Shown: positions 1,746 through 15,561 of the stretch, piece by piece | Position numbering within the stretch: position 1 is the first letter of the stretch | How the letters are laid out: every line of letters starts with the position of its first letter | NCBI GenBank assembly: GCA_031292255.1 | Contig: JARLHN010000012.1 | Coordinates: forward strand, 75,039 to 121,832 | DNA length: 46,794 nucleotides | Direction: 5' to 3' | Origin: Oryzomonas sp. | Lineage (GTDB): Bacteria > Desulfobacterota > Desulfuromonadia > Geobacterales > Pseudopelobacteraceae | Program-made: the position numbers and the translations under genes | Notes under the pieces: generated by a model | Seen by the model: only the letters and a program-made list of their open reading frames with translations | Databases searched by the model: none | What the model was told of the DNA's origin: nothing

Positions 1746-1931
1746 ATGCACATCGGTTATCAGTACCTGGTCCTCATCATTGCAGGGCTCGCCGCGGTTG
1801 CCTGGGGGCTGCCCGCGGCCCATCGCCTGAAAAAGCCTTACGACATCGCTGCTGCGTTGGCCGTCCTGGCCGGGGTTATTGCAACGATGATCGGCATCCT
1901 GTTGACCATAATCCCATCTTTTTTCAGGTGA
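1746..1931 (+). CDS. Small two-helix membrane protein of unknown function
   Basis: This 61-residue ORF begins at the base after the plsC stop and ends 3 bases before the next start. It encodes two hydrophobic segments (residues ~4-24 and ~35-58) joined by a basic loop containing HRLKKPYD. The tight packing within a run of same-strand genes supports real translation. I do not recognise a family. It could be an accessory to phospholipid synthesis given its position after plsC, but that is only inference from context. Confidence 0.7.
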   Translation: MHIGYQYLVLIIAGLAAVAWGLPAAHRLKKPYDIAAALAVLAGVIATMIGILLTIIPSFFR

Positions 1932-1934
1932 ACA

Positions 1935-2336
1935 ATGGACGAACGAATCAAGAAATCAGTCGCCAATGCCGCAATCATCATCGTGCTCAGCCTGCTATTG
2001 TTCCTTGCCGGGACGTGGTGGCGGATGCAGTCCCAGTTCCAACAGGGCGAAGCGGCCCTCACCAGGGGCGATTTCGCGGGGGCGCTGGCGGGCTATGAGT
2101 CGGCCATCCATATGTATATACCCTTCCATCCAACTATTGAGAAAGCAGCGCAAAAGCTCTGGCAGGTTGGAGAGATAGCGGAACGGCAAGGGGACGTCGG
2201 CCGCGCCCTGATCGCCTACCGCGCCCTGCGGAGCGCCTTCTACGCCGACCGCTGGCTGTCGCAGCCCGGCAAGGATTGGATCTGGCGTTGCGACCAGAAG
2301 ATCGCCGGCCTGGTGCCGCTGCAAAGAGAGAGATAA
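1935..2336 (+). CDS. Membrane-anchored TPR-like protein, function unknown
   Basis: The 133-residue product has a short basic N-terminus, one membrane helix (residues ~12-29, ending at LAGTWW) and then a soluble part made of helix pairs. GEAALTRGDFAGALAGYESA and the later GDVGRALIAYRALRSAF have the small/large residue pattern of tetratricopeptide repeats. It probably sits in the inner membrane with its helical domain outside. It lies 3 bases after the preceding small ORF and 3 bases before rnj, so it belongs to the same operon. No specific function can be assigned. Confidence 0.75.
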   Translation: MDERIKKSVANAAIIIVLSLLLFLAGTWWRMQSQFQQGEAALTRGDFAGALAGYESAIHMYIPFHPTIEKAAQKLWQVGEIAERQGDVGRALIAYRALRSAFYADRWLSQPGKDWIWRCDQKIAGLVPLQRER

Positions 2337-2339
2337 TCC

Positions 2340-4013
2340 ATGGCAGACTCCGAATCAAGTTATGCACTCAAGGTCATCCCACTCGGAGGGCTGGGCGAAA
2401 TCGGCCTGAACATGATGGCCTACCAGTACGGCGACGACATCATCATCGCCGACTGCGGCCTGATGTTCCCCGAACCTGATATGCTCGGCATCGACTACGT
2501 CATTCCCGACATCAGCTGGCTGCGCGAGCGTAGCGACTGTGTCCGCGCCATATGCCTGACCCACGGCCACGAGGATCACATCGGCGCCCTCCCCTTCGTA
2601 CTTCAGGAATTGAACGTGCCGGTCTACGGCACGGCCCTGACGCTCGGTTTCGTCAACGAAAAGCTCAAGGAGTACAAGCTGGACGGCGTGGTTGAACTGG
2701 TCACGGTCAAGCCGCGCGAAACGGTCGAGCTTGGCTGTTTCCGAGTGGAATTCCTGCGGGTGGCCCACTCTATCGTGGACGGTTGCGCCCTGGCCATCAC
2801 GACCCCCGAGGGGGTCGTGATCCATACCGGAGACTTCAAGATCGACCAGACCCCGGTGGACGGGGAGTTGACCGACCTGGCCCGGCTCTCCTGTTACGGC
2901 GACCAGGGGGTGCTGGCCCTGTTTTCCGACTCCACCAACGTGGAGCGCGAGGGGTACACCATCTCCGAGAAGTATGTGGGCGAGGCCTTTGCCGATATCT
3001 TCCCCAAATGCCGGGGCCGCATCATCGTGGCGGCTTTTTCCAGCAACATCCACCGGGTGCAGCAGGTGGCCGACGTGGCCATCGCCTGTGGCCGCAAGAT
3101 CCTGCTGAACGGCCGTTCCATGATCGCCAATGTGCGCATCGCCCGCCAATTGGGCTACCTGAACATCCCCGACGACATGCTGCTCGACCTGCGGGAGCTG
3201 GCCTATCTGCCGCCCGAACAGGTCTGCATGGTCACCACCGGCAGTCAGGGGGAGCCGATGTCGTCGCTTACCCGCATCGCCCTGGACGACCACAAGCAGA
3301 TCAAGCTGGAACGGGGCGACACGGTCATCCTCTCCTCGCGCTTCATCCCCGGCAACGAACGAACCATCTCGGAACTGATCAACCACCTCTACCGCCGCGG
3401 CGCCGAGGTCTACCACGAGAAGGTTTCCGAGGTGCACGTCTCCGGTCACGCGAGCCAAGAGGAACTCAAGCTGATGATGAACATCGTCCGGCCGCGTTTC
3501 TTCATGCCGATTCACGGCGAATACCGGCACTTGGTGAAGCACATCCAGCTTGCCCAGAAGGTCGGCATCCCCGAGGAGCGCTGCATCCTGGCCGTCAACG
3601 GCGAAGTGGTGGCCTTTTACGCCGATACGGCGGCGATCATCGAAAAGGTCGAATCAGGGCGTGTCTTCGTGGACGGCAAAGGGGTCGGCGACGTGGGCAA
3701 CGTGGTGCTCAAGGACCGTAAGCACCTTTCCGAAGACGGCATGGTGGTGGTGATCATCGGTATCAACGAGTCCAGCGGCGAACTGATCCACGGGCCGGAC
3801 ATCGTTTCCCGGGGGTTTGTGTTCGAGGACGAGAGCCAGGAGTATCTGGAGACCGCCCGCTGCATCGTGGTCGATGCGCTCGACGAGTTGAACGACGAGA
3901 TGCGCCGCGATTCGGAAGAGGTCAAAACCGTCGTGCGCCAGGTCTTGCGGCGCTTCTTCAAGAAAACCATCGAGCGCAGGCCTGTGATTTTGCCGGTTGT
4001 CATGGAGATGTAG
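2340..4013 (+). CDS. rnj: Ribonuclease J
   Basis: The 557-residue product is a full-length metallo-beta-lactamase/beta-CASP nuclease. The zinc ligands are in THGHEDHIGALP (about residues 77-88), followed by HTGDFKID, the beta-CASP switch region with SGHAS, and the C-terminal motif MPIHGEYRH. The family combines 5'-to-3' exonuclease and endonuclease activity in mRNA decay and rRNA processing, usually as a dimer or tetramer in the cytoplasm. The start at ATG 2340 follows a GAGAGAG purine stretch. It is the last gene of the rsfS-rlmH-plsC strand run. A long antisense ORF over it (2355-3542) is a codon-bias shadow. Confidence 0.95.
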   Translation: MADSESSYALKVIPLGGLGEIGLNMMAYQYGDDIIIADCGLMFPEPDMLGIDYVIPDISWLRERSDCVRAICLTHGHEDHIGALPFVLQELNVPVYGTALTLGFVNEKLKEYKLDGVVELVTVKPRETVELGCFRVEFLRVAHSIVDGCALAITTPEGVVIHTGDFKIDQTPVDGELTDLARLSCYGDQGVLALFSDSTNVEREGYTISEKYVGEAFADIFPKCRGRIIVAAFSSNIHRVQQVADVAIACGRKILLNGRSMIANVRIARQLGYLNIPDDMLLDLRELAYLPPEQVCMVTTGSQGEPMSSLTRIALDDHKQIKLERGDTVILSSRFIPGNERTISELINHLYRRGAEVYHEKVSEVHVSGHASQEELKLMMNIVRPRFFMPIHGEYRHLVKHIQLAQKVGIPEERCILAVNGEVVAFYADTAAIIEKVESGRVFVDGKGVGDVGNVVLKDRKHLSEDGMVVVIIGINESSGELIHGPDIVSRGFVFEDESQEYLETARCIVVDALDELNDEMRRDSEEVKTVVRQVLRRFFKKTIERRPVILPVVMEM

Positions 4014-4082
4014 CGGGCAACCCGTCGTTTTCATGGGTCCGAATCAAGTGTCCGATAATATACTGACTAAGGAGGCCTGACA

Positions 4083-4658
4083 GTGTCAACCCTTATCGAA
4101 TTAACGGCGCAGATCGTATCAGCCCACGTAACAAACATGCAAATGACCGCAGATGAAATGCTTCAGGAACTTCAAAAAGTTCATGTAACACTGAAAGCCC
4201 TGGGAAGCGGAGCATCCAAGGATGCCGAGCTATCCATGCCGCTGACCATCAAGCAGGCTTTCAAGAAGGATGAAGTAATCTGTATGATCTGCGGTAAGGG
4301 AGGATTCAAGACCCTCAAGAGACATTTGACCCAAGCACACGATCTTAAACCGGGACAATATAGGAAGCAGTTCAATATTCCTTCCTCCCTATCCCTGACA
4401 GCCAGGAGCTATTCCGAATCACGCAAACGAATGGCAATCGATAAGGGTCTCGGTGAAGGGCTGGCAAAAGCGAGAGAGCTGAAGTCAGCGAAGTCCAAGG
4501 AGGATAAAGCTCCTGTGCCGGCAGTGAGAGTTAAGCCTGCCGTACCGGCAGTGAAAGTAAAAGCATCGGTTCCAGCGGTTAGAAAGAAGGCTGCTGTACC
4601 GGCTAAGGTACAAGCGGCAACGACTTCAGATAAGCCATCCAACGCAATCAATGAATAG
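4083..4658 (+). CDS. MucR/Ros-family zinc-finger regulator with repeat tail
   Basis: The start is GTG at 4083 with a strong AAGGAGG 9 bases upstream. The first ~140 residues fit the MucR/Ros family: a zinc-finger C67-x2-C70-x10-H81-x4-H86, then [17 protein letters not shown] and the [21 protein letters not shown] segment. Known members bind AT-rich promoters and oligomerise in a histone-like way, often controlling exopolysaccharide, motility or cell cycle. The last ~45 residues are unusual: a four-fold VPAV-basic repeat (about residues 142-178) rich in Lys, Ala and Pro, resembling histone H1-type tails. Base composition is lower in GC than flanking housekeeping genes. It is followed by a chemoreceptor gene. 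Confidence 0.88.
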
Positions 4659-4738
4659 CTAAGGGTTGCCGGCGGGGTGATTCATTCGGAATCGTCTTGA
4701 CGGGATGCTTTAAAAACAAAGCGTTAGAGGGGATATGT

Positions 4739-6367
4739 ATGCCGTTTATCAGAAACATTAATTTGGCCTGGAAGTACTTTGTCTTTGGAGTACTGACGAC
4801 AGGTCTTTTGTTGACGGCAATGCTGATCTCTTATCGGGGCCTGAAAGGGACTAATGAACGTTTTGACCGTTTTAGCGATAAATATCAGGCCCTGGCCTTG
4901 ACCGTCAGTGATATGCACACTCAGGGAATTCAGACCGAGCAGGCGGTTCGTAATGTGATACTTAATCCGTCTGATGAAAAGGCCCTTTCAAATTACAAGA
5001 AGGCTTCGGAGGAGTTTGTTGGAATGCTCAAGGAAGCCACCCAAATTGCCGGTGGCGTCAAGGAGTACGGCAAACAGTTGGATAGACTGCCTGCGATGTG
5101 GCAGGAAAACACGGTAATCAAAGAAGAGGTCATCAAACTGGCCAGAGAAGGAAAGCAGGCAGACGCCATTAAAATACTCGTAAAAGAGGAAACTCCCAAA
5201 TGGCGAGAGATCAAGGCGCTGATCATCGAGATGCAGTCTGATCTCAAGAAGGATATGAAAACAGAACGTGGCGACCTTGGCGCTTTTACCGACAAATCAT
5301 TTTCTTTGACGGTAACGGCACTGATCGTCACCATCTTGCTTGTTAACATATTGCTGCTGGTCTTCTGGAGGGTCATGCAGACATCTTTCAACGAACTGGT
5401 CGAGCGCCTGAGGGATATCGCTGCCGGTGAAGGAGATCTGAATAAACGGCTTGATGTGAAGGGGAAGGACGAACTGGCTCAGGCCGCCCACTGGTTGAAT
5501 TTATTTATTGAGAAGATGTCGAGCGCTATTGGCAGTGTCGCAGGCACAGCCGCAAACCTGGCATCGGCAACCACAAAATTGAATGTAACTGCCAAGCAGA
5601 TGGCTGATAACGCCGAGGAAGTGGCGGCTCAGGCCGGCTCCGTTGCCACTGCCAGCGAAGAAATGGCAGCTACCAGCAACGACATCGCCAGCAACTGTCA
5701 CATGGTTGCCCAGAGTGCTCAACGGGCAGCGGATACTACTCAGAAAGGGTTTGAAGTGGTGAGGCATACCGTTGACGGTATCCGTCAACGCGGTGATCGC
5801 ACAAAGGAAAACGCCCTGGCAATCTCGTCGCTAGGCGAACGTTCAGATCAGATTGGTGCCATTGTTGCCACTATTGAAGATATCGCCGATCAAACCAATT
5901 TGTTGGCCTTGAATGCCGCCATCGAAGCTGCCAGGGCTGGAGAACAAGGCCGGGGCTTTGCTGTTGTCGCTGATGAAGTGCGCGCTCTGGCTGAACGTAC
6001 TACACGGGCCACAAAAGAAATAAGTGAAATGATAAAAACCATTCAGAATGAGACCAGGCAAGCAATAGTCTCTATGGAAGAAGGGGTCAGGGGCACGGAA
6101 AAGGGTGCAGAGGAGGCGACCAGGCTGGAGACGGCTTTGCAGGAAATTTTGGAGCAGGTCAATGAGGTTACCATGCAGGTGGGTCAGATCGCCACCGCTG
6201 CCGAGGAACAGACTGCCACTACCAGCGAAATCACCGGCAATATTCACCGGATCTCCTCGATTATCGAAGGGGCATCCAAAGGAGCGCATGATACCGCTTC
6301 CGCTTCTTCAAATTTGTCTAATATGGGTGACGAATTAAATCGTATGATCAGTCAGTTCAAACGATAG
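4739..6367 (+). CDS. Methyl-accepting chemotaxis protein
   Basis: The ATG at 4739 is preceded by GAGGGGA at good distance; an upstream in-frame TTG at 4697 is possible but lacks such a site. From the ATG, the 542-residue product has a membrane helix (~10-31), a periplasmic helical domain of the four-helix-bundle type to ~185, a second membrane helix (~187-211), a HAMP domain (~212-264) and a cytoplasmic coiled coil. The tip signature is [20 protein letters not shown] and the following [12 protein letters not shown] (about residues 384-420). It would signal to CheA/CheW. There is no CheR-tethering pentapeptide, and no other che gene is nearby. The ligand cannot be predicted. Confidence 0.93.
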
Positions 6368-6838
6368 CTGTAAAGCCATAACAGCTTAACCTGAAGCCGA
6401 TATAATATAATCGGTTTTACGGCAAACCGAAAAGTCATTTACACCGAGCCGTTGACAGGCACGGTTTAATCCCGGCCTGGGCAACCAGCAGGGCATACTT
6501 CCAAGTTGGCAAATCAAACGTAGCATCTTGTCAGCCCCCCAGTGGTCCCCCCTATTCTGGTCTAATTTCACGTCACCGTTCCGGAGTTGAGCATATATTG
6601 AAAAAACTCCGTGATTTTCTCTGTGTTTTGTGGCCGGATTTCCGATCGTATGTTTATTGTCACATTGTGCAGAGTCCTTCTGCCGTAATCCGCTCCGCTT
6701 GACTCGCCGCGCCCCCCCGCGCTACACTCGAAGTGTGTAAAATATCTACTCATGCCATAACGCGAGTAAACGAGGAGTTCGTCGATCCGGTTTGCCGACC
6801 GCACATCGGTGTGATTCCAACTCGCTTCAGGAGTGTAT
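6368..6838. other. Intergenic region between chemoreceptor and sigma-54 regulator genes
   Basis: About 470 bases without a convincing gene. A 102-codon ORF on the minus strand (6568-6876) has no family features and runs into the next gene, so it is not called. The right half holds a good sigma-70-type promoter for the downstream gene. A GC-tract run of C residues occurs around 6533-6550 and 6711-6718. No clear terminator for the chemoreceptor gene was found. Confidence 0.5.
6699..6728 (+). promoter_or_regulatory. Predicted sigma-70 promoter for the GAF/sigma-54 regulator
   Basis: TTGACT at 6699-6704 and TACACT at 6723-6728 are separated by 18 bases. This would start transcription near 6735, giving a leader of about 100 bases before the ATG at 6839. 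The spacer is extremely C-rich. Confidence 0.5.
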
Positions 6839-9658
6839 ATGCCCATCGATACAAGGCTTGCGGCCTTGCACGTCAAGATTGCCGCTTATGGCAAGGAAAA
6901 CCAGGGGGAGCTTTTGTACGCTCTCTCCGAGGGAGCCCGCCTGCTGTCGGGGAACGAGCGGGTGCGGATCTACCTTGAAGACCTGACCCGCGGAGCGCTC
7001 TCCTGCGTCTATGCCACCGGCGACCATGCGGCGGCCATCCGCGATGTGCATTTCCCGATCATTTCCACGGAGACCGTGGTTTCCAGCGTCTTTGTCAGCC
7101 AGTATCCCATGGATTTCAAGAGCGCCGCCGCCTTGCCCCGTTCGGCCGACCGCCTCTTTGCCGAGACCTTTGCCTTCCGGGCCGCCTGGATCATGCCGGT
7201 GGTCAGCCTGGGCAAGTCCATCGGCGTGCTCTGCATCGACAGCGAGACCGGCGGGGAGGTTCTGAATGCCCAAAGCAAGTCGCTCCTGGCCGACTTCGCC
7301 GGATTCGTGGCCGACCGGCTCGACCAGGCCCGCATCTACCACCAGCAGGTGCAACTGGCCCGCCGCCTGGAGGAGTTCAAGGCCCGCGAGGCGGCCGGCA
7401 TGATGGTGCGGTCCGCGGTGCGGCTGATCGAGAAGCTCTCCCTGGCCTCGGTGCTCGTGCCGAGGCATCAACCGGAAACGGGAGTGGACGAGTTGGAGAT
7501 CCTGGCCAGTTCTTCGGAAGATGCCCAGCTCAAGGCCCTCTACGACCAGCAGGGGACCATCGATTTGCACAAGGGCAAGTCGCTGATCTCCCAGTACATT
7601 GACGATCAGGCGGTGATCGACGACGAACGCCTGCTCAAGCCGATGTTCATAGCCGACCTGACCCAGCACCGGCTGCAAAAGCGGGAATTGACCGAATCCA
7701 TGGCCCTGCGCTCATTGTACGTGGTGCCCCGTTACGAGCCCAAGAGCCGCCGCATCATCTGCCTGGTGAACTATTTTTCCCACGACCTGTACCGTTTCAA
7801 CGATTTTGAGATGGGGTTGTTGCAGACCCATGCCGAGATGGTCGAACGGGTCATCAGCGAGGTGGGGGGCGAACACCTGGAGATCCGGGTGCTGTCCGAG
7901 ATCACCGACCTGCTGAACGAGAGCACCGAGAGCCTCCAGCCGTTCCTGACCAAGGTGCTTTCCAAGGCCACCGAGCTGATCGGCGCGGATACCGGCAGCA
8001 TCGCCGTGGTCAGCGAGCGGGACGGGGTCAAATGGCTGGTGGTTGAGGACGAGGCCGGGAACATTATCGGCGCCAAGAACAAGGAGTGGCTCAAGAAGTA
8101 TATCCCGCCGTTTCTGATCGGCGGCGAGGAGTTGCCGCCCGAGGAGCGCAGCCTGACCGGGTACGTGGCCTTCACCAAGCTGCCCAAGATCATCTCGCGG
8201 GTCGAGGAAGAGCAGCAGGCAGGCGGCTTCCACCGCTCCATGAGCGATCTCCTGAAGAGCGAGATCGCCGTGCCGGTCATCTGCGACGACGAGGTGATCG
8301 CAGTGATCTGCCTCAATTCCCTGTACTACGACCATTTCCGCGAAGAACACCGCCGTATCCTGCAGATCATAGGCTCGCTGACAGCCCGGCACATCTCTGA
8401 CCTGCAGCGCATTGAACGCCTCCAGGGAGAAGTGAACCGGCTGACCAGCGACGTGGCCTACAAGGACCCGCATGTCTCCTCATACCGCCTGGGCAACATC
8501 ATCGGCAACAGCTCCGCTTCCCAGGCCGTGGTGGAGTTCATCAGCACGGTCTCGCCGCCGCTGTTCAACCGGATCGTCTTCTGGAGCCGCAACAACCTCC
8601 AGGAAGCCACCATCGGGCTCCCGTCGATTCTGGTGACCGGCCCTACCGGTTCTGGCAAGGAGTTTTTCTTCAACAACCTCTACAACAACTTAAACGGCCT
8701 CTACCGCCGGCAGATAAATCCTGGCGGCGAATTGCCGGTCAAAAAGACCAATATCGCCGCCTATGCCGGCGATCTCACCTATTCCGAGCTGTTCGGCCAC
8801 AAGAAGGGCGCTTTTACCGGCGCTTACACCGACCGGCGCGGCATCCTGGAGGAAACCATCGGCGGCATCGTTTTTTTGGACGAGATCGGCGACGCCGACC
8901 CCAAGACCCAGGTGCAATTGCTCCGCTTCCTGGACAACGGCGGGTTCGTGCGCCTGGGGGAGAACGCGGAACGGTTCAGCCGCGTGTTGCTGGTGGCGGC
9001 CACCAACAGGAACCTGCAGGAGGAGATCGCCGCCGGCCGCTTCCGGGAGGACCTGTACCACCGCCTGGCCGAGCTCTCCATACGGCTCCCCTCCCTCAAC
9101 GAACGGCGCGAGGACATCCCCGACCTGTCGGTGCATTTTCTGGGCAAGCTGTACCGCACCTACCGGAGCGAAAACGACCCCTCCGACCAACCGCCCGTGC
9201 TCACCAAAGAGGCCAAGGAGATCCTCACCCGGCACACCTACAAGGGCAACATCCGCGAATTGCGCAGCATCCTGCTCAGGGCGCTCTTCTTCCGGCGCAA
9301 GAACGTCATCGCGGGCGATGCCATCCTCCAGGCCATTGCCGGCATGGGAGGGGGTGAGGTCACTGCCCGGCAACTCCCGCCGGCCCGCGACCTGGATGAG
9401 AGGCTGGCGGACGACATCCTGGAACGGATTGCCGCGGGGGGCGATTTCTGGGGCGAGGTCTACGAGCCGTTCTCCCGCAGCGATATCTCGCGGGAGACGG
9501 TGCGGCTGGTAATCGAAAAGGCCCGCGCCAGAGCCGGCAAGACCTTGCCTGCCGTGGCGCGCTACCTCAAGGCTGTGGCTTACGGGGGTGGGGAAGAGGG
9601 AAAGCTGCGGCTGTACAAGTTCAAGAACTTTTTATACAAGACAATAAAAATAAGCTAG
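6839..9658 (+). CDS. GAF-domain sigma-54-dependent transcriptional regulator
   Basis: The ATG at 6839 has AGGAG at 6829-6833; an in-frame GTG at 6833 overlaps that site and is less likely. The 939-residue product starts with about 560 residues of GAF-like sensory folds, probably three, then a sigma-54 AAA+ domain. This has a Walker A GPTGSGK (~600-606), the sigma-54 contact loop GAFTGA (~657-662), Walker B VFLDEIG (~680) and LPSLNERREDIPDL. It should therefore hydrolyse ATP and open sigma-54 promoters in response to a signal bound by the GAF part. The end is atypical: a helical basic segment (ISRETVRLVIEKARARAG..., ending FLYKTIKIS) instead of a clear Fis-type helix-turn-helix. Its last codons form part of a long direct repeat. 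Confidence 0.88.
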   Translation: MPIDTRLAALHVKIAAYGKENQGELLYALSEGARLLSGNERVRIYLEDLTRGALSCVYATGDHAAAIRDVHFPIISTETVVSSVFVSQYPMDFKSAAALPRSADRLFAETFAFRAAWIMPVVSLGKSIGVLCIDSETGGEVLNAQSKSLLADFAGFVADRLDQARIYHQQVQLARRLEEFKAREAAGMMVRSAVRLIEKLSLASVLVPRHQPETGVDELEILASSSEDAQLKALYDQQGTIDLHKGKSLISQYIDDQAVIDDERLLKPMFIADLTQHRLQKRELTESMALRSLYVVPRYEPKSRRIICLVNYFSHDLYRFNDFEMGLLQTHAEMVERVISEVGGEHLEIRVLSEITDLLNESTESLQPFLTKVLSKATELIGADTGSIAVVSERDGVKWLVVEDEAGNIIGAKNKEWLKKYIPPFLIGGEELPPEERSLTGYVAFTKLPKIISRVEEEQQAGGFHRSMSDLLKSEIAVPVICDDEVIAVICLNSLYYDHFREEHRRILQIIGSLTARHISDLQRIERLQGEVNRLTSDVAYKDPHVSSYRLGNIIGNSSASQAVVEFISTVSPPLFNRIVFWSRNNLQEATIGLPSILVTGPTGSGKEFFFNNLYNNLNGLYRRQINPGGELPVKKTNIAAYAGDLTYSELFGHKKGAFTGAYTDRRGILEETIGGIVFLDEIGDADPKTQVQLLRFLDNGGFVRLGENAERFSRVLLVAATNRNLQEEIAAGRFREDLYHRLAELSIRLPSLNERREDIPDLSVHFLGKLYRTYRSENDPSDQPPVLTKEAKEILTRHTYKGNIRELRSILLRALFFRRKNVIAGDAILQAIAGMGGGEVTARQLPPARDLDERLADDILERIAAGGDFWGEVYEPFSRSDISRETVRLVIEKARARAGKTLPAVARYLKAVAYGGGEEGKLRLYKFKNFLYKTIKIS

Positions 9659-9675
9659 CACTAAAGGTTTTTTTA
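9628..9675 (+). repeat. Direct repeat copy 1 (3' end of the sigma-54 regulator gene)
   Basis: This segment matches 12330-12377 over 48 positions, with a 25-base identical core at 9635-9659 and few mismatches outside (one at 9634, two at 9660-9661, two at 9669-9670). It covers the final codons FLYKTIKIS and the TAG stop of the upstream gene. Confidence 0.9.
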
Positions 9676-9838
9676 TTTGTTTTTCAATTCCCCGAAGTTC
9701 GCTTTTTTGATTTAAATCAGCTGTGTATGGAGGCTTATAATCAGTAGATGCATCGTAACTTGATGAGAGATAGTTTGTTGGAAGGGAGGGGCAATTTTTT
9801 GGTTGGGAATACTCTTTTTCACTGTTGTCTTTTGGCAT
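9632..9838 (-). CDS. Possible small ORF downstream of the TPR-methyltransferase gene
   Basis: A 68-codon ORF reads from ATG at 9838 on the minus strand, 58 bases after the end of the TPR-methyltransferase gene, and ends inside direct repeat copy 1, antisense to the sigma-54 regulator end. The product is polar (rich in Ser, Lys, Asn, Pro, Tyr), has no recognisable domain, and lacks a good ribosome binding site. It may be chance; it is listed because the AT-rich region holds nothing else. Confidence 0.2.
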   Translation of the reverse strand: MPKDNSEKEYSQPKNCPSLPTNYLSSSYDASTDYKPPYTADLNQKSELRGIEKQIKKPLVLAYFYCLV

Positions 9839-12336
9839 GTCAACGTACAGATTTGATACTACATACCTTTTATATTCTCATCGGACTTCCTCGGCCCTAT
9901 GCCTTTTGAATCCAAAACTGGTACATACCGGAAAATAAGTCAGGGTTTTCATTTTCGAAAATATGCCACTGTTCAAGGTTAATAGCGGCGCGATCATGAG
10001 GAAAACGTCGCTTGTATAAATGAATAATTTCTGGGTCAAGATCAAAACCAAGAAAAACCAGATTGTTCTCCCGAATAAAGGTATTAATACTGGTCAACGT
10101 CATGCAATGTTCTTGGACATGGACAAGCAAATCTCGGCATGTACTGATGCTAAAAAAATCAATTGATTTTATAACAGTACCAATTTCTGTCTTATCGAAT
10201 AAATCTATCAAATCTTGGCGACATCGCCGAATTTCATTGGCAGTTGACCCATAACCCTGCTTAGTAATAAAGTCCCGTAATTTAGCGATATTCCGTCGTG
10301 CAAGTTCGCTATAAAAGCCAAGACTCATAAAACCACCGGGACGAAGCAGAGACAAAAGTATCCGCCACCCGGCAAATGGATCAGCTAGATGGTGCAGCAC
10401 TCCACACGATTCAATAACATCAAAAGTACGACCAAGTGAACTTAGATTGAGCAAATCGGCTTGAGCGTATTCGATGGAGGTTAAGCCAAGCTCACGCGTT
10501 TTACGTTTGGCGTAACAGAGGCTGCTTATGCTTAGATCAATAGCCAGGATATGCGCCCCCTGGAATCGTTGCGCCGTTTGAATTGGATGTTGGCCAGTCC
10601 CACAACCGGCAATCAGAATGTCTGAGCTGCTAGTATTGATATTTCTGGTAAAAGAAACCAGAGGAAACTTCTGACACAAATAATCGAGGAAATGTTTCGC
10701 TTTCTCACTGGGTTTTGTCTTGATCCAGCGAGGGTACGGATTTTCTTCATATTGATTCTGAACCAGGTGCGATATTTTGTCATCAATGTCGGTCAATCGG
10801 AGGATGCCGGTACGTAATTGGAGTTCTTCCTCCGGTTCACAAATCTGTTGCACCAGCAATGTCTTAATTGCCTCAGGCCATTCGATATCTAATAACCGAG
10901 CTGCATATGGAAGTGAATAAAGAGGGAAGTAAGCCGCTACTGCCACCGGCCATAGGGTTGGAATTGGAGTTTTGGCTTCAAGTGCCGAGATAAGTAAATC
11001 TCTCAATGTACATGCTTTATTGTTCTCGTCGTCGGTATGTGAAAACACATATTCATTAATATAGCACTGACTTGCCAATGCGCAATAGAAACTCAAGGCC
11101 GTGGCGATCTCATTGACTGAAGCAGTTCCCTCGGTGGCAGCTTCAAGCATGTTACTACGGGCCACAATTAGAAATCGCTCCATTTCAATGTTGCAGATTG
11201 GAGTCGATTTAAGTAAGCCGCACAACAAGGGGTCAACTGCAAGCTTGGCAAGGCTTTTTAACTCGTACAAAACTTGCGCCGAAAGCCGCCGAGGCCAAGC
11301 GATGTTTGCCCGGACAATAATCTCATGAATACCAGGGGTGTTCATTGCCAAGTTGGTGCACATCAGGGCAAGGTCGCTTGGTCGTACCCAAGGTTCGGTT
11401 AATGCACGAACAATAGTAGCTCTATCATCGTTGTTTATTAGTGTCAAAGGGATGTGCGCGACGCAGGAAGTAAAAATTCGTTTAGTTGCTACAGTCTCCT
11501 TGATCTGCAAAGCCCTCTTAGCAAAGTTAAAAGCCATGCTATACTTGCCTTGAACAGTTAGAAGCAAAGCCAGATTAAGATTTATTTCGGCATAATCTGG
11601 CTTGATTCTCAAGGCTTGAAGGTAACAAGCTTCCGCTTCGCACATTCGGCCCATATCTTTGAGTATAATACCGAGGTTGTTATACGCTTCACAGAAATTA
11701 GGATTGATGTTCAGTGCCTGGCGATGGCAGGTTTCTGCCTCGTTTAGCCGCCCCAGATCCTTGAGTACAATGCCCAGATTATTATGTGCTTCAGCAAAAT
11801 CAGGTTCTATCTCCAACGCCTGCTTGTAGCTTGCTGCTGCCTCGTCTAGCCGACCAAGTTCCTTGAGTGTGGCACCCAGATTATTATACGTATTTGAGGA
11901 ATTAGGATTGATCTCCAGCGCTCGGCGATAGCAGCCTTCGGCTTCGGAGAATATGCATAAACCATTAAAGATATCTCCAAGGATGCTGAGTGTGTCTGTA
12001 TCTTCTGGAAATATATCAGCCGCTTTTCTCATAGGAGCCAGGGCTTCTGCGGTTCTTCCTTGTAAGAAAAGAGCTGCTCCCAATAATTTCCATGCAAATC
12101 CATGTTTGGGAAATCTACTGGTAATTGTGAGTGCTAAGGTTTCAAACTCTGGGTAACGACCATGACTGAACAGGGTTGCAAGAGTATTTAACTCATTATT
12201 ATTTGGGTCGTTATTGTGATTGTACATATGTAACCTGCCAACGGAAATTTATTTCCCGGGGTACCCTGACTTTGCCTGGGACTCACAAAATTTGGTCATA
12301 ACAATATGATTTATAATCGGATAAGAAAGCTTTTTG
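9635..12336. mobile_element. 2.7-kb inserted segment bounded by direct repeats
   Basis: The 48-bp repeats at 9628-9675 and 12330-12377 bracket a visibly AT-richer segment whose only sizeable gene is the TPR-methyltransferase on the minus strand. The distal repeat still encodes the C-terminus FLYKTIKIS-stop of the sigma-54 regulator; the Leu codon differs synonymously (TTA versus TTG). This is the layout left by site-specific integration into a gene 3' end, where the element brings a replacement end. No integrase or transposase gene is present, so a decayed or trans-mobilised element, or segment acquisition by homologous exchange, are the options. Removal of one repeat plus the segment would restore a compact convergent gene pair. 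Confidence 0.55.
9897..12227 (-). CDS. TPR-repeat protein with C-terminal SAM-dependent methyltransferase domain
   Basis: The 776-residue product begins with tetratricopeptide repeats (residues ~35-235). At least three are near copies of an AYNNLG...LKDLGR...AEACY unit of 34 residues. After a middle region of unknown fold comes a class I methyltransferase: motif I ILIAGCGTGQHP (~535), an acidic end of strand 2 in LAIDLS, and a later FDVIESCGVLHHLADPF block. Such fusions often act near surface-polysaccharide or protein glycosylation loci; substrate here is unknown. It lies alone inside a repeat-bounded insertion, on the opposite strand to the regulator whose end is duplicated. AT-richer codon use than its neighbours suggests horizontal origin. 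ATG at 12227 has a weak AGG upstream. Confidence 0.85.
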   Translation of the reverse strand: MYNHNNDPNNNELNTLATLFSHGRYPEFETLALTITSRFPKHGFAWKLLGAALFLQGRTAEALAPMRKAADIFPEDTDTLSILGDIFNGLCIFSEAEGCYRRALEINPNSSNTYNNLGATLKELGRLDEAAASYKQALEIEPDFAEAHNNLGIVLKDLGRLNEAETCHRQALNINPNFCEAYNNLGIILKDMGRMCEAEACYLQALRIKPDYAEINLNLALLLTVQGKYSMAFNFAKRALQIKETVATKRIFTSCVAHIPLTLINNDDRATIVRALTEPWVRPSDLALMCTNLAMNTPGIHEIIVRANIAWPRRLSAQVLYELKSLAKLAVDPLLCGLLKSTPICNIEMERFLIVARSNMLEAATEGTASVNEIATALSFYCALASQCYINEYVFSHTDDENNKACTLRDLLISALEAKTPIPTLWPVAVAAYFPLYSLPYAARLLDIEWPEAIKTLLVQQICEPEEELQLRTGILRLTDIDDKISHLVQNQYEENPYPRWIKTKPSEKAKHFLDYLCQKFPLVSFTRNINTSSSDILIAGCGTGQHPIQTAQRFQGAHILAIDLSISSLCYAKRKTRELGLTSIEYAQADLLNLSSLGRTFDVIESCGVLHHLADPFAGWRILLSLLRPGGFMSLGFYSELARRNIAKLRDFITKQGYGSTANEIRRCRQDLIDLFDKTEIGTVIKSIDFFSISTCRDLLVHVQEHCMTLTSINTFIRENNLVFLGFDLDPEIIHLYKRRFPHDRAAINLEQWHIFENENPDLFSGMYQFWIQKA

Positions 12337-12377
12337 TACAAGACAATAAAAATAAGCTAGCTTTAAAGGTCATTTTA
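12330..12377 (+). repeat. Direct repeat copy 2
   Basis: Second copy of the 48-bp repeat at 9628-9675; identical core at 12337-12361. In the frame of the regulator gene it still reads FLYKTIKIS and TAG although no coding region precedes it. It ends 19 bases before the stop of the convergent minus-strand gene at 12396. Confidence 0.9.
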
Positions 12378-12395
12378 ATAGTGCATCCCCGCGAA

Positions 12396-12776
12396 TCATT
12401 TTGAAAACTTCGATACCACCATCAGGGTCATGGGTGTCAAATACGGGATCAGCCAAACGCACCAGACCGTAAGACTGAATTTGTGGAAGCTCGCGATGAG
12501 CGCCGTATCTTTTTTGATAATCACGATAGTGGCCCAAATGGCATGCACGAGCATCAGCGCGATGGCCAACAAGCCTGATACGCCGTGCACGTCGTACGTA
12601 ATTCTGCCCTTCAGCTGAAACATCAGGCCGGTTCCCCAGGTATCGCATACGATTCCGCACCAGAAGAAGATCAGGTGCCATAGCTTGAGCCTCCTGGAGA
12701 TCCGCTCACTCCAGACACCGATCGAATAAAAGAGCAACGCCAGATTGATGACGATGACAGGCAGTATGATCGACAC
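12396..12776 (-). CDS. Four-helix integral membrane protein (HsmA/TIGR03987-like)
   Basis: The 126-residue product is almost entirely membrane helices (about residues 2-21, 32-52, 66-89 and 100-121), with short basic loops such as ERISRRLKLWH. It resembles the small HsmA-type family (TIGR03987), whose biochemical role I do not know. The start is GTG at 12776, and it overlaps by one base the TAG stop of the ChaN-like gene (TAGTG), indicating translational coupling. The histidines within or near helices (YDVHGVSG, LVHAIW) could bind haem, but this is only a suggestion. Its 3' end faces the repeat-bounded insertion. Confidence 0.7.
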   Translation of the reverse strand: MSIILPVIVINLALLFYSIGVWSERISRRLKLWHLIFFWCGIVCDTWGTGLMFQLKGRITYDVHGVSGLLAIALMLVHAIWATIVIIKKDTALIASFHKFSLTVWCVWLIPYLTPMTLMVVSKFSK

Positions 12777-13627
12777 TAGTCGCCTCTGGGTATGAGGTAG
12801 TCAACGTCTTCGGTGGTCGGCTTCAGCCAGCCGAATTCCACCAGATCCGGCAGCACCACCTTGTACGTGGCACTTCCGTAGTCCTTGAGGGATTCCGGTG
12901 CTCCGTTCTTGATGGCATGCCACGTCCCCGCAATTGCTATAACCTTGCGTTCGGGGAATTTACGCCGGTACTTGACGATATTGTAGGCCATGGTGTTGTT
13001 GCGAAGCGCCTGCGCCTCTTCGAAATTGGCGGCGGGAATCCGGGTAGGAGCATTGCGGAATGCCTGTTCCCTGATGCGTCTCAGATATTCGGCCTGACGG
13101 GGATGCAAAGTCCAGTGGAGGCCTGGCGGCAGTTCGCTCTTGTCGTTTTCGTCGAGCGACGCAGCCCCCAGCCTCACCACTTTGGCTATAATCGCTTTTG
13201 GTACGTTAAGTGCGATCATCGGGATGTGATTGTCGCGGGAAAAGATGAACAGGTCACGGTACAGGCCCCAGTCGTAGGACCAATTCCTGGCATAGATAGC
13301 GGCGAACTCTTTCTCATCCAGCTTTCCCGTGGTCCAATCATCGAGATACCTTTGGCTGTCCGTCGTGAACATCTCAAGCCCTATTGCCAGCTGATGGTTT
13401 CCGGCATAAAGCGCTCGTATGATTTCCAATTGCTTGACGTGGATACGGTTGTCGTCGTGGGTATCGCCGATGAAGATCACCTCTGACCGCCCGATGTCTT
13501 CTACGAATTTGCCGAAATCCACCGGGCCTTTTCCGTTCATGCCGACAATGTCCATGGCAGCATTCGCACCGATGCTCGTAGAAAGCACCGTGGCTGCCAT
13601 CAAGGTAAGGACGATGAATGTTTTCAC
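12776..13627 (-). CDS. ChaN-family putative haem/iron-binding protein
   Basis: The chosen start is GTG at 13627: it has GGGAGA 5 bases upstream and opens a signal peptide (VKTFIVLTLMAATVLSTSIGANA). A longer frame back to 13777 lacks support. The 283-residue product has the ChaN/Tiki-type (PF04187) landmarks VIFIGDTHDD near the N-terminus, GLEMFT, the central RNWSYDWGLYRDLF and the late VIAIAGTWHA. Family members dimerise around haem groups, and some are outer-membrane lipoproteins; no lipobox cysteine is visible here, so a soluble periplasmic form is likely. It is coupled to the downstream membrane protein gene, which may be a partner. Confidence 0.8.
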   Translation of the reverse strand: MKTFIVLTLMAATVLSTSIGANAAMDIVGMNGKGPVDFGKFVEDIGRSEVIFIGDTHDDNRIHVKQLEIIRALYAGNHQLAIGLEMFTTDSQRYLDDWTTGKLDEKEFAAIYARNWSYDWGLYRDLFIFSRDNHIPMIALNVPKAIIAKVVRLGAASLDENDKSELPPGLHWTLHPRQAEYLRRIREQAFRNAPTRIPAANFEEAQALRNNTMAYNIVKYRRKFPERKVIAIAGTWHAIKNGAPESLKDYGSATYKVVLPDLVEFGWLKPTTEDVDYLIPRGD

Positions 13628-13995
13628 TGAATCTCCCTCGCATTTTTGATGAGTAGGACTATAGCAGGCACGGTTTAAGTTGGAAACCAGATTTCGAAAG
13701 CATGCGGATTCACATGAAAAAAAGCCCCACGGCCGGAGGGATGGCCGCAGGGCAAACTGCAATGATGAATTATCCATCGGAATGTGCCAAAGTCAATAGC
13801 TGGAAGTAAGGTTTATTTCATTACTACCTGCTACTTTATCGTATGGTCCGTTCCTGATCGGATGAAGAAGATGCGCCATTGTGGGGCAGGCCGAAGGCCG
13901 GGCGTATTGCTGCCCGGCCTTCGTCGTTATTGGTGAGGTGTCATGCCGCTGCCGTGCCCTGCCCGATGAAGCGAAGAAGGGGGGAATGCAATGGG
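13628..13995. other. Intergenic region between leuA and the ChaN-like gene
   Basis: About 370 bases. It holds a minus-strand terminator (13717-13753) and a separate perfect 12-bp hairpin (13892-13903 with 13912-13923, loop of 8) just after the leuA stop, which has no T-run on either strand and may be an RNA 3'-stabilising structure or a Rho-linked terminator. A 68-codon minus-strand ORF here (13793-13999) has no coding features. Confidence 0.5.
13717..13753 (-). terminator. Rho-independent terminator downstream of leuA
   Basis: On the minus strand a stem of GCCC and CGGCC pairs with GGCCG and GGGC around a small internal mismatch (arms 13743-13753 and 13724-13734), followed by seven T residues (13723-13717). 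It separates the leuA transcript from the ChaN-like gene. Confidence 0.75.
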
Positions 13996-15561
13996 TCAAA
14001 CGGATTCGGTGAGGCGTTTCTGCTTGTAGTTCAAGCGGTTGAGAGCGTGGATATACGCCTTGGCCGAGGCCTCGATGATATCGGTGGAGGAACCCTTGCC
14101 TACCACGATGTGGTTGCCCTCGGCCACCCTGACGGTGACCTCGCCCTGGGCATCGGTGCCGCCGGTGATGGAGCCTACGTTGTATTGCAGCAGCTTCGCC
14201 TTGTTCTTGGTCAGCTTCTTGATGGCCTTGAGGGTGGCGTCAACCGGGCCGTCTCCGAGTTCGGCGGTGCGCACCGGCAGGCCGTCGATCTCTAGCTGCA
14301 CCGTGGCGGTGGCCACCGCAAAGGAGCCGCAGGTGACGGTGATGTGCCCCAGCTTGTACTTCACGTCCTCGCGGGATTCGTCAACCACGATGGCGTCCAG
14401 GTCTTCGTCGAAAACCTCCTTCTTCAGGTCGGCCAGGGTCTTGAAGCGCTCAAAGGCCTTGTTGAGTTTGTCCTCGTCCAGCTCGTGGCCCAACTCCTCC
14501 AGGCGTTTCTTGAAGGCGTGGCGGCCGGAGTGCTTGCCCAGCACCAGGGCGCTGGCGGAAAGCCCCACCGATTCCGGCGTCATGATCTCGTAGGTGGACT
14601 TGTCCATCATCATGCCGTGCTGGTGGATGCCCGCCTCGTGGGCAAAGGCATTGGCGCCCACGATTGCCTTGTTGGGCTGGACCGCGATGCCGGTGATGTT
14701 GGTCAGAAGCCGGCTGGTCGGGGTGAGCTGCTCGGTGGCCACATTGGTGGTAAAGGGAAGGATGTCGTGGCGCGTGCGCAGCGCCATGACGAACTCCTCC
14801 AGGGAACAGTTGCCGGCCCGTTCGCCGATGCCGTTGATGGTGCATTCCACCTGGCGGGCGCCGGCCTGCACGGCGGCGATGGAGTTGGCTACCGACAGCC
14901 CCAGGTCGTTGTGGCAATGTACCGAGATCACGGCCCTGTCGATGTTCTTCACGTTCTCCTTCAGGTAGGTGATGATGTTGAAGTATTCGAAGGGGATGGT
15001 GTAGCCGACCGTATCCGGGATGTTGACCGTGGTCGCGCCCGCCTCGATGACCGCCTCGACCACCTCGGCCAGAAACGGCAGCCTTGTCCGCACGGCGTCC
15101 TCGCAGGAGAACTCGACATTCGCGGTGTAGGACGCGGCCCGCTTGACCGCTTTGATAGCCGCTGCCAGCACCTTGGCCGGCTCCATCTGCAGCTTGTACT
15201 TCATGTGGATGTCGGAGGTGGCGATAAAGGTGTGGATGCGCCCCTTTTCGCCGGCATACTTCAACGCCTCCCAGGCCCGGTCGATATCCTTTTCGCTGGA
15301 GCGGCACAGACCGGCGATCTGGGGTCCCTTGATCTGTTGGGCCACCAGCTTGACCGCCTCGAAATCGCCTTCGGAAGCGATGGGAAAGCCGGCCTCGATC
15401 ACGTCCACATTCATCTTCTGAAGCTGTCTTGCCACCCGCAGTTTTTCTTCGATATTCATGCTGTTGCCGGGCGACTGTTCGCCGTCCCGCAGCGTGGTGT
15501 CAAAAATCCTGATGAGTTGCCGGTCATCCTGCTTCTGTGTTTTCGTCGGTGCCTTTGCCAT
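13996..15561 (-). CDS. leuA: 2-isopropylmalate synthase
   Basis: The 521-residue product is a full-length type I LeuA. It has IFDTTLRDGEQSPG (active-site Arg and Asp) near residues 18-31, the metal-binding SVHCHNDLG, GIGERAGNCSLEE, and a C-terminal LeuA dimer regulatory domain with GDGPVDATLKAI, normally the leucine feedback site. It condenses acetyl-CoA with 2-oxoisovalerate, the first committed step of leucine synthesis. Start ATG 15561 has AAAGGAG upstream. A leucine T-box leader precedes it, matching the assignment as LeuA rather than citramalate synthase. The gene stands alone; other leu genes are not in the window. Confidence 0.95.
   Translation of the reverse strand: MAKAPTKTQKQDDRQLIRIFDTTLRDGEQSPGNSMNIEEKLRVARQLQKMNVDVIEAGFPIASEGDFEAVKLVAQQIKGPQIAGLCRSSEKDIDRAWEALKYAGEKGRIHTFIATSDIHMKYKLQMEPAKVLAAAIKAVKRAASYTANVEFSCEDAVRTRLPFLAEVVEAVIEAGATTVNIPDTVGYTIPFEYFNIITYLKENVKNIDRAVISVHCHNDLGLSVANSIAAVQAGARQVECTINGIGERAGNCSLEEFVMALRTRHDILPFTTNVATEQLTPTSRLLTNITGIAVQPNKAIVGANAFAHEAGIHQHGMMMDKSTYEIMTPESVGLSASALVLGKHSGRHAFKKRLEELGHELDEDKLNKAFERFKTLADLKKEVFDEDLDAIVVDESREDVKYKLGHITVTCGSFAVATATVQLEIDGLPVRTAELGDGPVDATLKAIKKLTKNKAKLLQYNVGSITGGTDAQGEVTVRVAEGNHIVVGKGSSTDIIEASAKAYIHALNRLNYKQKRLTESV

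Follow-up and report, generated by a model that had tools for sequence, protein, structure and literature searches.

The path described for CIMEs, in the consulted part of PMC5704250, begins with integration; the element then decays to a CIME in which the att sites persist, and another element is added by accretion. A protein-coding target is described in the consulted part of PMC4482086 for the dusA-associated integrases: this family is linked to a single protein gene, and the 5' end of that gene is replaced by its islands. The locus analysed here lies at the 3' end of the gene for a GPMC system transcriptional regulator in Oryzomonas sp., within a stretch of 46,794 nucleotides that is called the window throughout. 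The two units found in the window behind this gene are best read as CIME-like relics, probably made by accretion and decay. Searches returned no published description of the site, and the term 'GPMC system' gave no paper. The consulted portions of the texts of PMC12424338 and PMC12884075 name neither Geobacter nor Geomonas, and the databases or supplements of these papers may list such islands uncommented.

The regulator gene end and the units behind it

Full-length or near-full-length orthologues of the regulator, which matches NCBIfam NF038230 at 1580.6 bits (cut-off 1200), were found in 52 of the 57 relatives searched, a count that includes G007, where the match is in two pieces, and G053, where a contig end truncates it; in the remaining five there were weak matches only. 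The two pieces in G007 (G007:C14:22666-25546) cover residues 1-595 and 598-940 and may represent a split gene or an assembly error. A pattern for the final FKNF(L)YKT codons of the regulator was present in 130 of the 141 genomes of the order, which we take to be Geobacterales. Gene ends were compared in the 40 relatives with fetched flanks. The C-terminus reads TVK(I/L)G-stop in the five relatives of the same genus, whereas in the window the frame is intact and closes with an altered end, TIKIS-stop, written in AT-rich codons; by this difference the window's regulator end looks imported.

Features at and behind the regulator gene, in coordinates of the window
Feature	Position	Strand	Remarks
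GPMC system transcriptional regulator, 941 aa	6833..9658	+	GAF and sigma-54 interaction domain (Pfam)
Proximal att copy	9628..9675	+	AT-rich regulator end, TIKIS-stop
Unit A	9659..12329		AT-rich insert between the two att copies
TPR-methyltransferase gene, 776 aa	9897..12227	-	TPR repeats and methyltransferase; sole listed ORF of at least 80 aa in unit A
Middle att copy	12330..12377	+	Second AT-rich gene end, FLYKTIKIS-stop
Unit B	12378..13834		Between middle att copy and decayed native end
HsmA family protein gene	12396..12776	-	NCBIfam TIGR03987, 145.3 bits, cut-off 78.2
ChaN/Tiki-like haem-binding protein gene	12776..13777	-	Pfam PF04187, 2.1e-50
Decayed native regulator end, displaced	13835..13864	+	Aligned to both ends of G004 (displaced end, gene end) and to the gene ends of G001 and G005
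Terminator-like hairpin	13893..13922	+	Directly behind the regulator end in G001, G003, G004 and G005
HMGL/LeuA-type gene	13996-15561		Beyond the foreign stretch

A preliminary description of this DNA had reported a direct repeat with a 25-base core around the segment behind the regulator, and this repeat was located as claimed. The two copies, at 9628-9680 and 12330-12382, are 87% identical over 53 nt, lie 2702 nt apart from start to start, and share a 25-nt core that is identical in both, TACAAGACAATAAAAATAAGCTAGC. The distal copy equals the last 33 nt of the regulator at 31 positions, compared with a best chance match of 21 among 200 first-order random sequences generated from the 16 kb downstream. 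It reads FLYKTIKIS-stop with TTG in place of TTA, which confirms the synonymous change also described earlier. Across 277 genomes of the class (presumably Desulfuromonadia), a 24-nt core with up to three mismatches allowed occurred at two places only, both of them the window's repeats; the core is thus not a dispersed repeat, and the earlier claim survives this check. Chance similarity, or a common dispersed repeat, is contradicted by both the random-sequence comparison and the core search, and no point in its support was found; this explanation was rejected as having practically no probability.

The segment between the repeats has a G+C content of 43.1%, against 62.4% in the regulator, and its ORF has a GC3 of 0.41, against 0.85. 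The description of this segment as a 2.7-kb, AT-richer part with one TPR-methyltransferase gene was upheld, but not its end at 12377, as the foreign stretch appears to reach approximately 13855. Homology of the window to the far side in G004 restarts at 13856. Unit B, with a G+C content of 52.3% (12378-13850), holds the HsmA-like and ChaN-like genes, and the true start of the latter may be nearer 13628. The hairpin that follows is read as the regulator's old terminator.

Three gene ends are present in the window, at 9628, at 12330 and, as a remnant, at 13835. The copy at 12330 does not represent the native end pushed away by an insertion; it looks like a second imported end, and a stretch that reads as the native end in decayed form lies at 13835-13864. 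The regulator frame is regenerated with an altered end and the native end is displaced to the far side. A single insertion would leave the native end distal, yet unit A is closed on its distal side by a copy that is likewise of the imported type, and from this we infer that at least two insertions carrying the same end type were needed. The stretch from approximately 9.66 to 13.85 kb is best interpreted as at least two integrase-less units in tandem. A 98-bp block at 13713-13810 is 88% identical to the stretch directly behind G004's own regulator end. In the window this block sits just before the decayed native end, which is not its place in G004, and the history of unit B is therefore more tangled than simple stacking.

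With 10 of the site integrases described below as queries, the stretch 9601-13950 showed no similarity with an E value below 0.085, in agreement with the earlier statement that no recombinase is present. The window's genome, in an assembly that is 88% complete, gave six tyrosine-recombinase matches, all on other contigs, and at E<=1e-20 none that belongs to the site clade. An element that could have supplied the window's AT-rich end was sought in the 277 genomes at up to three mismatches; the end occurred in the window's own genome and in no relative, and no viral contig carried the exact 21-mer of this end. Since an integrase gene of its own was looked for within the segment and was absent, the segment is filed as relic-like rather than as an autonomous island. 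Most likely, the foreign stretch is the eroded remainder of integrase-bearing elements that used the gene end.

Relatives of the TPR-methyltransferase (E<=1e-60) occur in 10 of the 141 genomes, the window's own included. Two adjacent relatives in G003 (G003:C1:1180055-1186998) are both approximately 46% identical to the window's protein. GT41-type and FkbM-type proteins lie near the relatives in G119 and G024, a hint from which glycan modification can be guessed as the role of the protein; the neighbours scanned in G051 and G050 were of other kinds (response regulators, UbiD). No defence role was indicated by PADLOC, where the best match (1.2e-11) was to a methyltransferase part, and no att-like motif was found beside the relatives at L154-L163 and L170-L174.

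Apparently empty and occupied sites in relatives and their integrases

The site was compared with its counterparts in relatives of the same genus, all from species other than the window's own. In G001, G003 and G005 the gene end is followed directly by the hairpin, GAAGGCCGGGCG...GCCCGGCC. G002 shares the sequence up to the gene end, after which homology with G001 returns at +26 following 10.4 kb of insert. This insert begins with an integrase remnant, has no clear second copy at its right end, and carries genes for GntP permease, FAD oxidoreductase, RibBA-type and MFS proteins; because it is missing in G001, this genome and the others like it count as empty by comparison with G002. A displaced end (26 of 33 positions) lies at +4771 in G004, with no integrase match there. 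An empty site had been expected to show one repeat copy followed by the HsmA-like gene. This expectation failed in the fetched flanks of the 40 relatives, where neither the HsmA-like gene (0 of 40) nor the ChaN-like gene was found, and where the HMGL/LeuA-type gene follows the regulator by 44-122 nt in eight. The reading of G001, G003 and G005 as empty is qualified by this arrangement, since in these three genomes other genes take up 4.6-6.2 kb between the regulator and the HMGL/LeuA-type gene.

A perfect copy of the gene end is present in G040, 9.98 kb downstream of the regulator. The element there (L068:587-10600, 10 kb) has a tyrosine integrase approximately 200 bp past the gene, together with a DnaB-like helicase and the small subunit of a terminase, and appears to be phage-satellite-like. 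With this integrase as query, 56 of the 141 genomes of the order gave matches at E<=1e-20, and the loci of the best 30 matches were cut out. The best-scoring 11 of these 30 all lie directly behind the regulator end on the same strand; within flanks of no more than 1.5 kb the regulator-end motif is missing from all 19 others. In a maximum-likelihood tree the 11 site integrases form one group, with one change and 92% of bootstrap trees, at a support of 90/89 that falls below the tree tool's mark for strong support; none of 500 shuffles gave a value as low. The preliminary description had proposed a search for an associated tyrosine recombinase family, and one integrase clade is indeed found at this gene end in relatives.

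Comparison of coordinates for the matches beyond these 30 added integrase remnants at the site in G002, of the same genus, and in G008 and G039. A search of named genomes returned 12 integrase loci, with the motif upstream of 10 that are near full length and absent from two that are partial. Those 10 belong to Geobacter sp. AOG1, to Geomonas edaphica, azotofigens, paludis, anaerohicana and oryzae, and to four metagenome bins; they overlap 10 of the 11 site loci and so add no independent support. Among viral contigs, 60 stretches fitted the pattern for integrase relatives and none was confirmed, and phage records gave 10 matching records, of which the eight listed were only 23-24% identical. 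A tRNA-type target was also considered and rejected, as the target is a protein gene; the 19 non-site integrase loci likewise contained no tRNA.

Copies of the gene end on the same contig and strand lie 2.7-20 kb apart in 10 of the 141 genomes (G000, G040, G056, G069, G070, G076, G077, G081, G120 and G137), the window's included; in the nine others they lie 7.3-20 kb apart around insertions, and the genomes past the end of the listed matches have one match each by their per-genome counts. An integrase is found inside the pair in eight of the ten, and G000 and G120 have none. In G070, G056 and G077 the proximal end, AAAACCGTGAAG, is unlike the distal end, GACGGTGAAG, and the latter is the gene end found in G068 and G071, so the end that now closes the regulator came in with the element, and the native end was displaced by it. 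The proximal and distal copies differ in G120 and G137 too. The remaining five pairs (G040, G069, G076, G081 and G000) have ends that are equal or nearly so, and no tail replacement is visible in them. Nine nucleotides over the Phe-Leu-Tyr codons are identical within the G120 and G070-type pairs, and the exchange point would lie over these codons; G137 and the window each have one mismatched base inside this stretch. A 27-residue integrase remnant lies just past the distal copy in G081, and a second integrase piece lies within the element of G056; both are remains of stacked elements.

The cargo of these insertions differs between relatives (phage-satellite-like, relaxase-bearing, phosphonate operon), as the preliminary description had suggested checking. 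Among the 10 ORFs scanned of the 18 in the G070 element (L135) are those for a TrwC relaxase, two Fic proteins and Abi_alpha, along with a short-chain dehydrogenase and a TetR regulator, and the element looks mobilizable and is possibly defensive. The G120 island (L140, G120:C28:62500-75700, approximately 1800-12650) spans 11.1 kb between regulator-end copies with no integrase match, and the eight of its 13 ORFs scanned included a GntR regulator, a phosphonate-binding protein, PhnI, PhnJ and an amidohydrolase. A transposase was found among the two of nine ORFs scanned in the G137 element. Given that flanks were covered for 40 relatives and for chosen elements of the 141 genomes, decayed insertions have surely been missed and no occupancy rate is claimed.

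Origin of the two units

An attB at the gene end, stacked insertions and their decay to two CIME-like relics together make up a reading of the locus that we regard as probable. The proposal made earlier, of site-specific integration into the 3' end of a gene with restoration of that end, holds in that relatives carry integrase-bearing insertions at exactly this end. We count as established the foreign make-up of the segment, the att copies, the hotspot, the integrase clade and the end replacement in several relatives. Within this order, the regulator's 3' end would be the chromosomal attB that a clade of tyrosine integrases uses. Exchange would take place near the Phe-Leu-Tyr codons. The incoming element provides the final six or seven codons plus the stop codon and the native gene end moves to the element's far side, as comparison shows in several relatives. 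The window's lineage would have taken up at least two such elements in succession, each with the same AT-rich end. An integrase of this kind probably inserted units A and B, with later loss of the integrase genes; the integrase and transfer genes of these elements would have been lost or never present. The present remains are unit A (2.7 kb, TPR-methyltransferase) and unit B (approximately 1.5 kb, HsmA-like and ChaN-like), followed by the decayed native end and the hairpin.

Unit A might instead still be mobile, as a minimal att-flanked cassette moved in trans by the site integrases of other elements. Its att copies are nearly identical although the middle copy is not under coding selection, G120 provides another att-flanked island without an integrase, and stacked elements occur at this site elsewhere. 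Such mobility is nonetheless unlikely: the window's genome lacks an integrase of the site clade and holds no further copy of the att sequence, and decay yields the same anatomy without new activity. Between the two options left by the preliminary description, cargo moved in trans or a relic, the relic fits better, with some chance left to movement in trans. Bolder, and quite improbable, is the idea of a cassette dock, where small integrase-free units, each carrying a variant of the regulator's closing codons, would enter and leave in trans through the integrases that other elements carry. If this were true, the host would gain cargo, such as the methyltransferase or the phosphonate operon of G120, together with variants of the C-terminus of a sigma-54 regulator.

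The lack of any integrase trace in the window would also suit an arrival of the segment by homologous or illegitimate recombination, in which the gene end was duplicated in tandem to give the repeat and no integrase took part; the repeated gene end and hairpin of G004, again with no integrase, point the same way. Against this stand the integrase-bearing elements at the same gene end in many relatives, the left limit of the duplicated piece, which falls near the presumed exchange point, and the foreignness of the repeated end to the genus. Together they leave a duplication without integrase very unlikely. With stacked site-specific insertions and their decay as the preferred reading, each integration can rewrite the last codons of a sigma-54 regulator, with a possible effect on that regulator.

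Comparison with known systems

The gene end constitutes a new protein-coding attachment site, found across the order including Geobacter and Geomonas, with its own integrase clade. One integrase clade is common here to a phage-satellite-like element, a relaxase-bearing element and bare cargo islands. Positions of islands in these hosts can be predicted from the site, which together with its clade provides a candidate integrase/attB pair for them. The attachment site and the integrase clade are what is new, and the kind of system is already known.

As in CIMEs, the window's units are without integration and transfer genes, keep their att sites and are stacked at a shared target-gene end (consulted part of PMC5704250). 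Direct repeats of the gene end stand at a site that integrase-bearing elements use, and the products encoded between and behind them are the TPR-methyltransferase and the HsmA-like and ChaN-like proteins. The units differ from the CIMEs in that part of the source in their target, the GPMC regulator of a Geobacter-like host, in the 2.7-kb size and single gene of unit A, and in being known from sequence only. With the dusA islands, as presented in the consulted part of PMC4482086, the locus shares an integrase family on one protein-coding gene, diverse islands and a target end supplied by the island, a likeness that rests on site and island features and not on integrase kinship. The dusA islands occupy a 5' end and their excision was seen by PCR, whereas the present site is a regulator 3' end read from its nucleotide sequence. 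Compared with SGI1 and its relatives at the trmE 3' end (consulted part of PMC8409611), the gene and the host group are different and the likeness is one of site type, not of integrase kinship: in both cases, genomic islands occupy the 3' end of a protein-coding gene.
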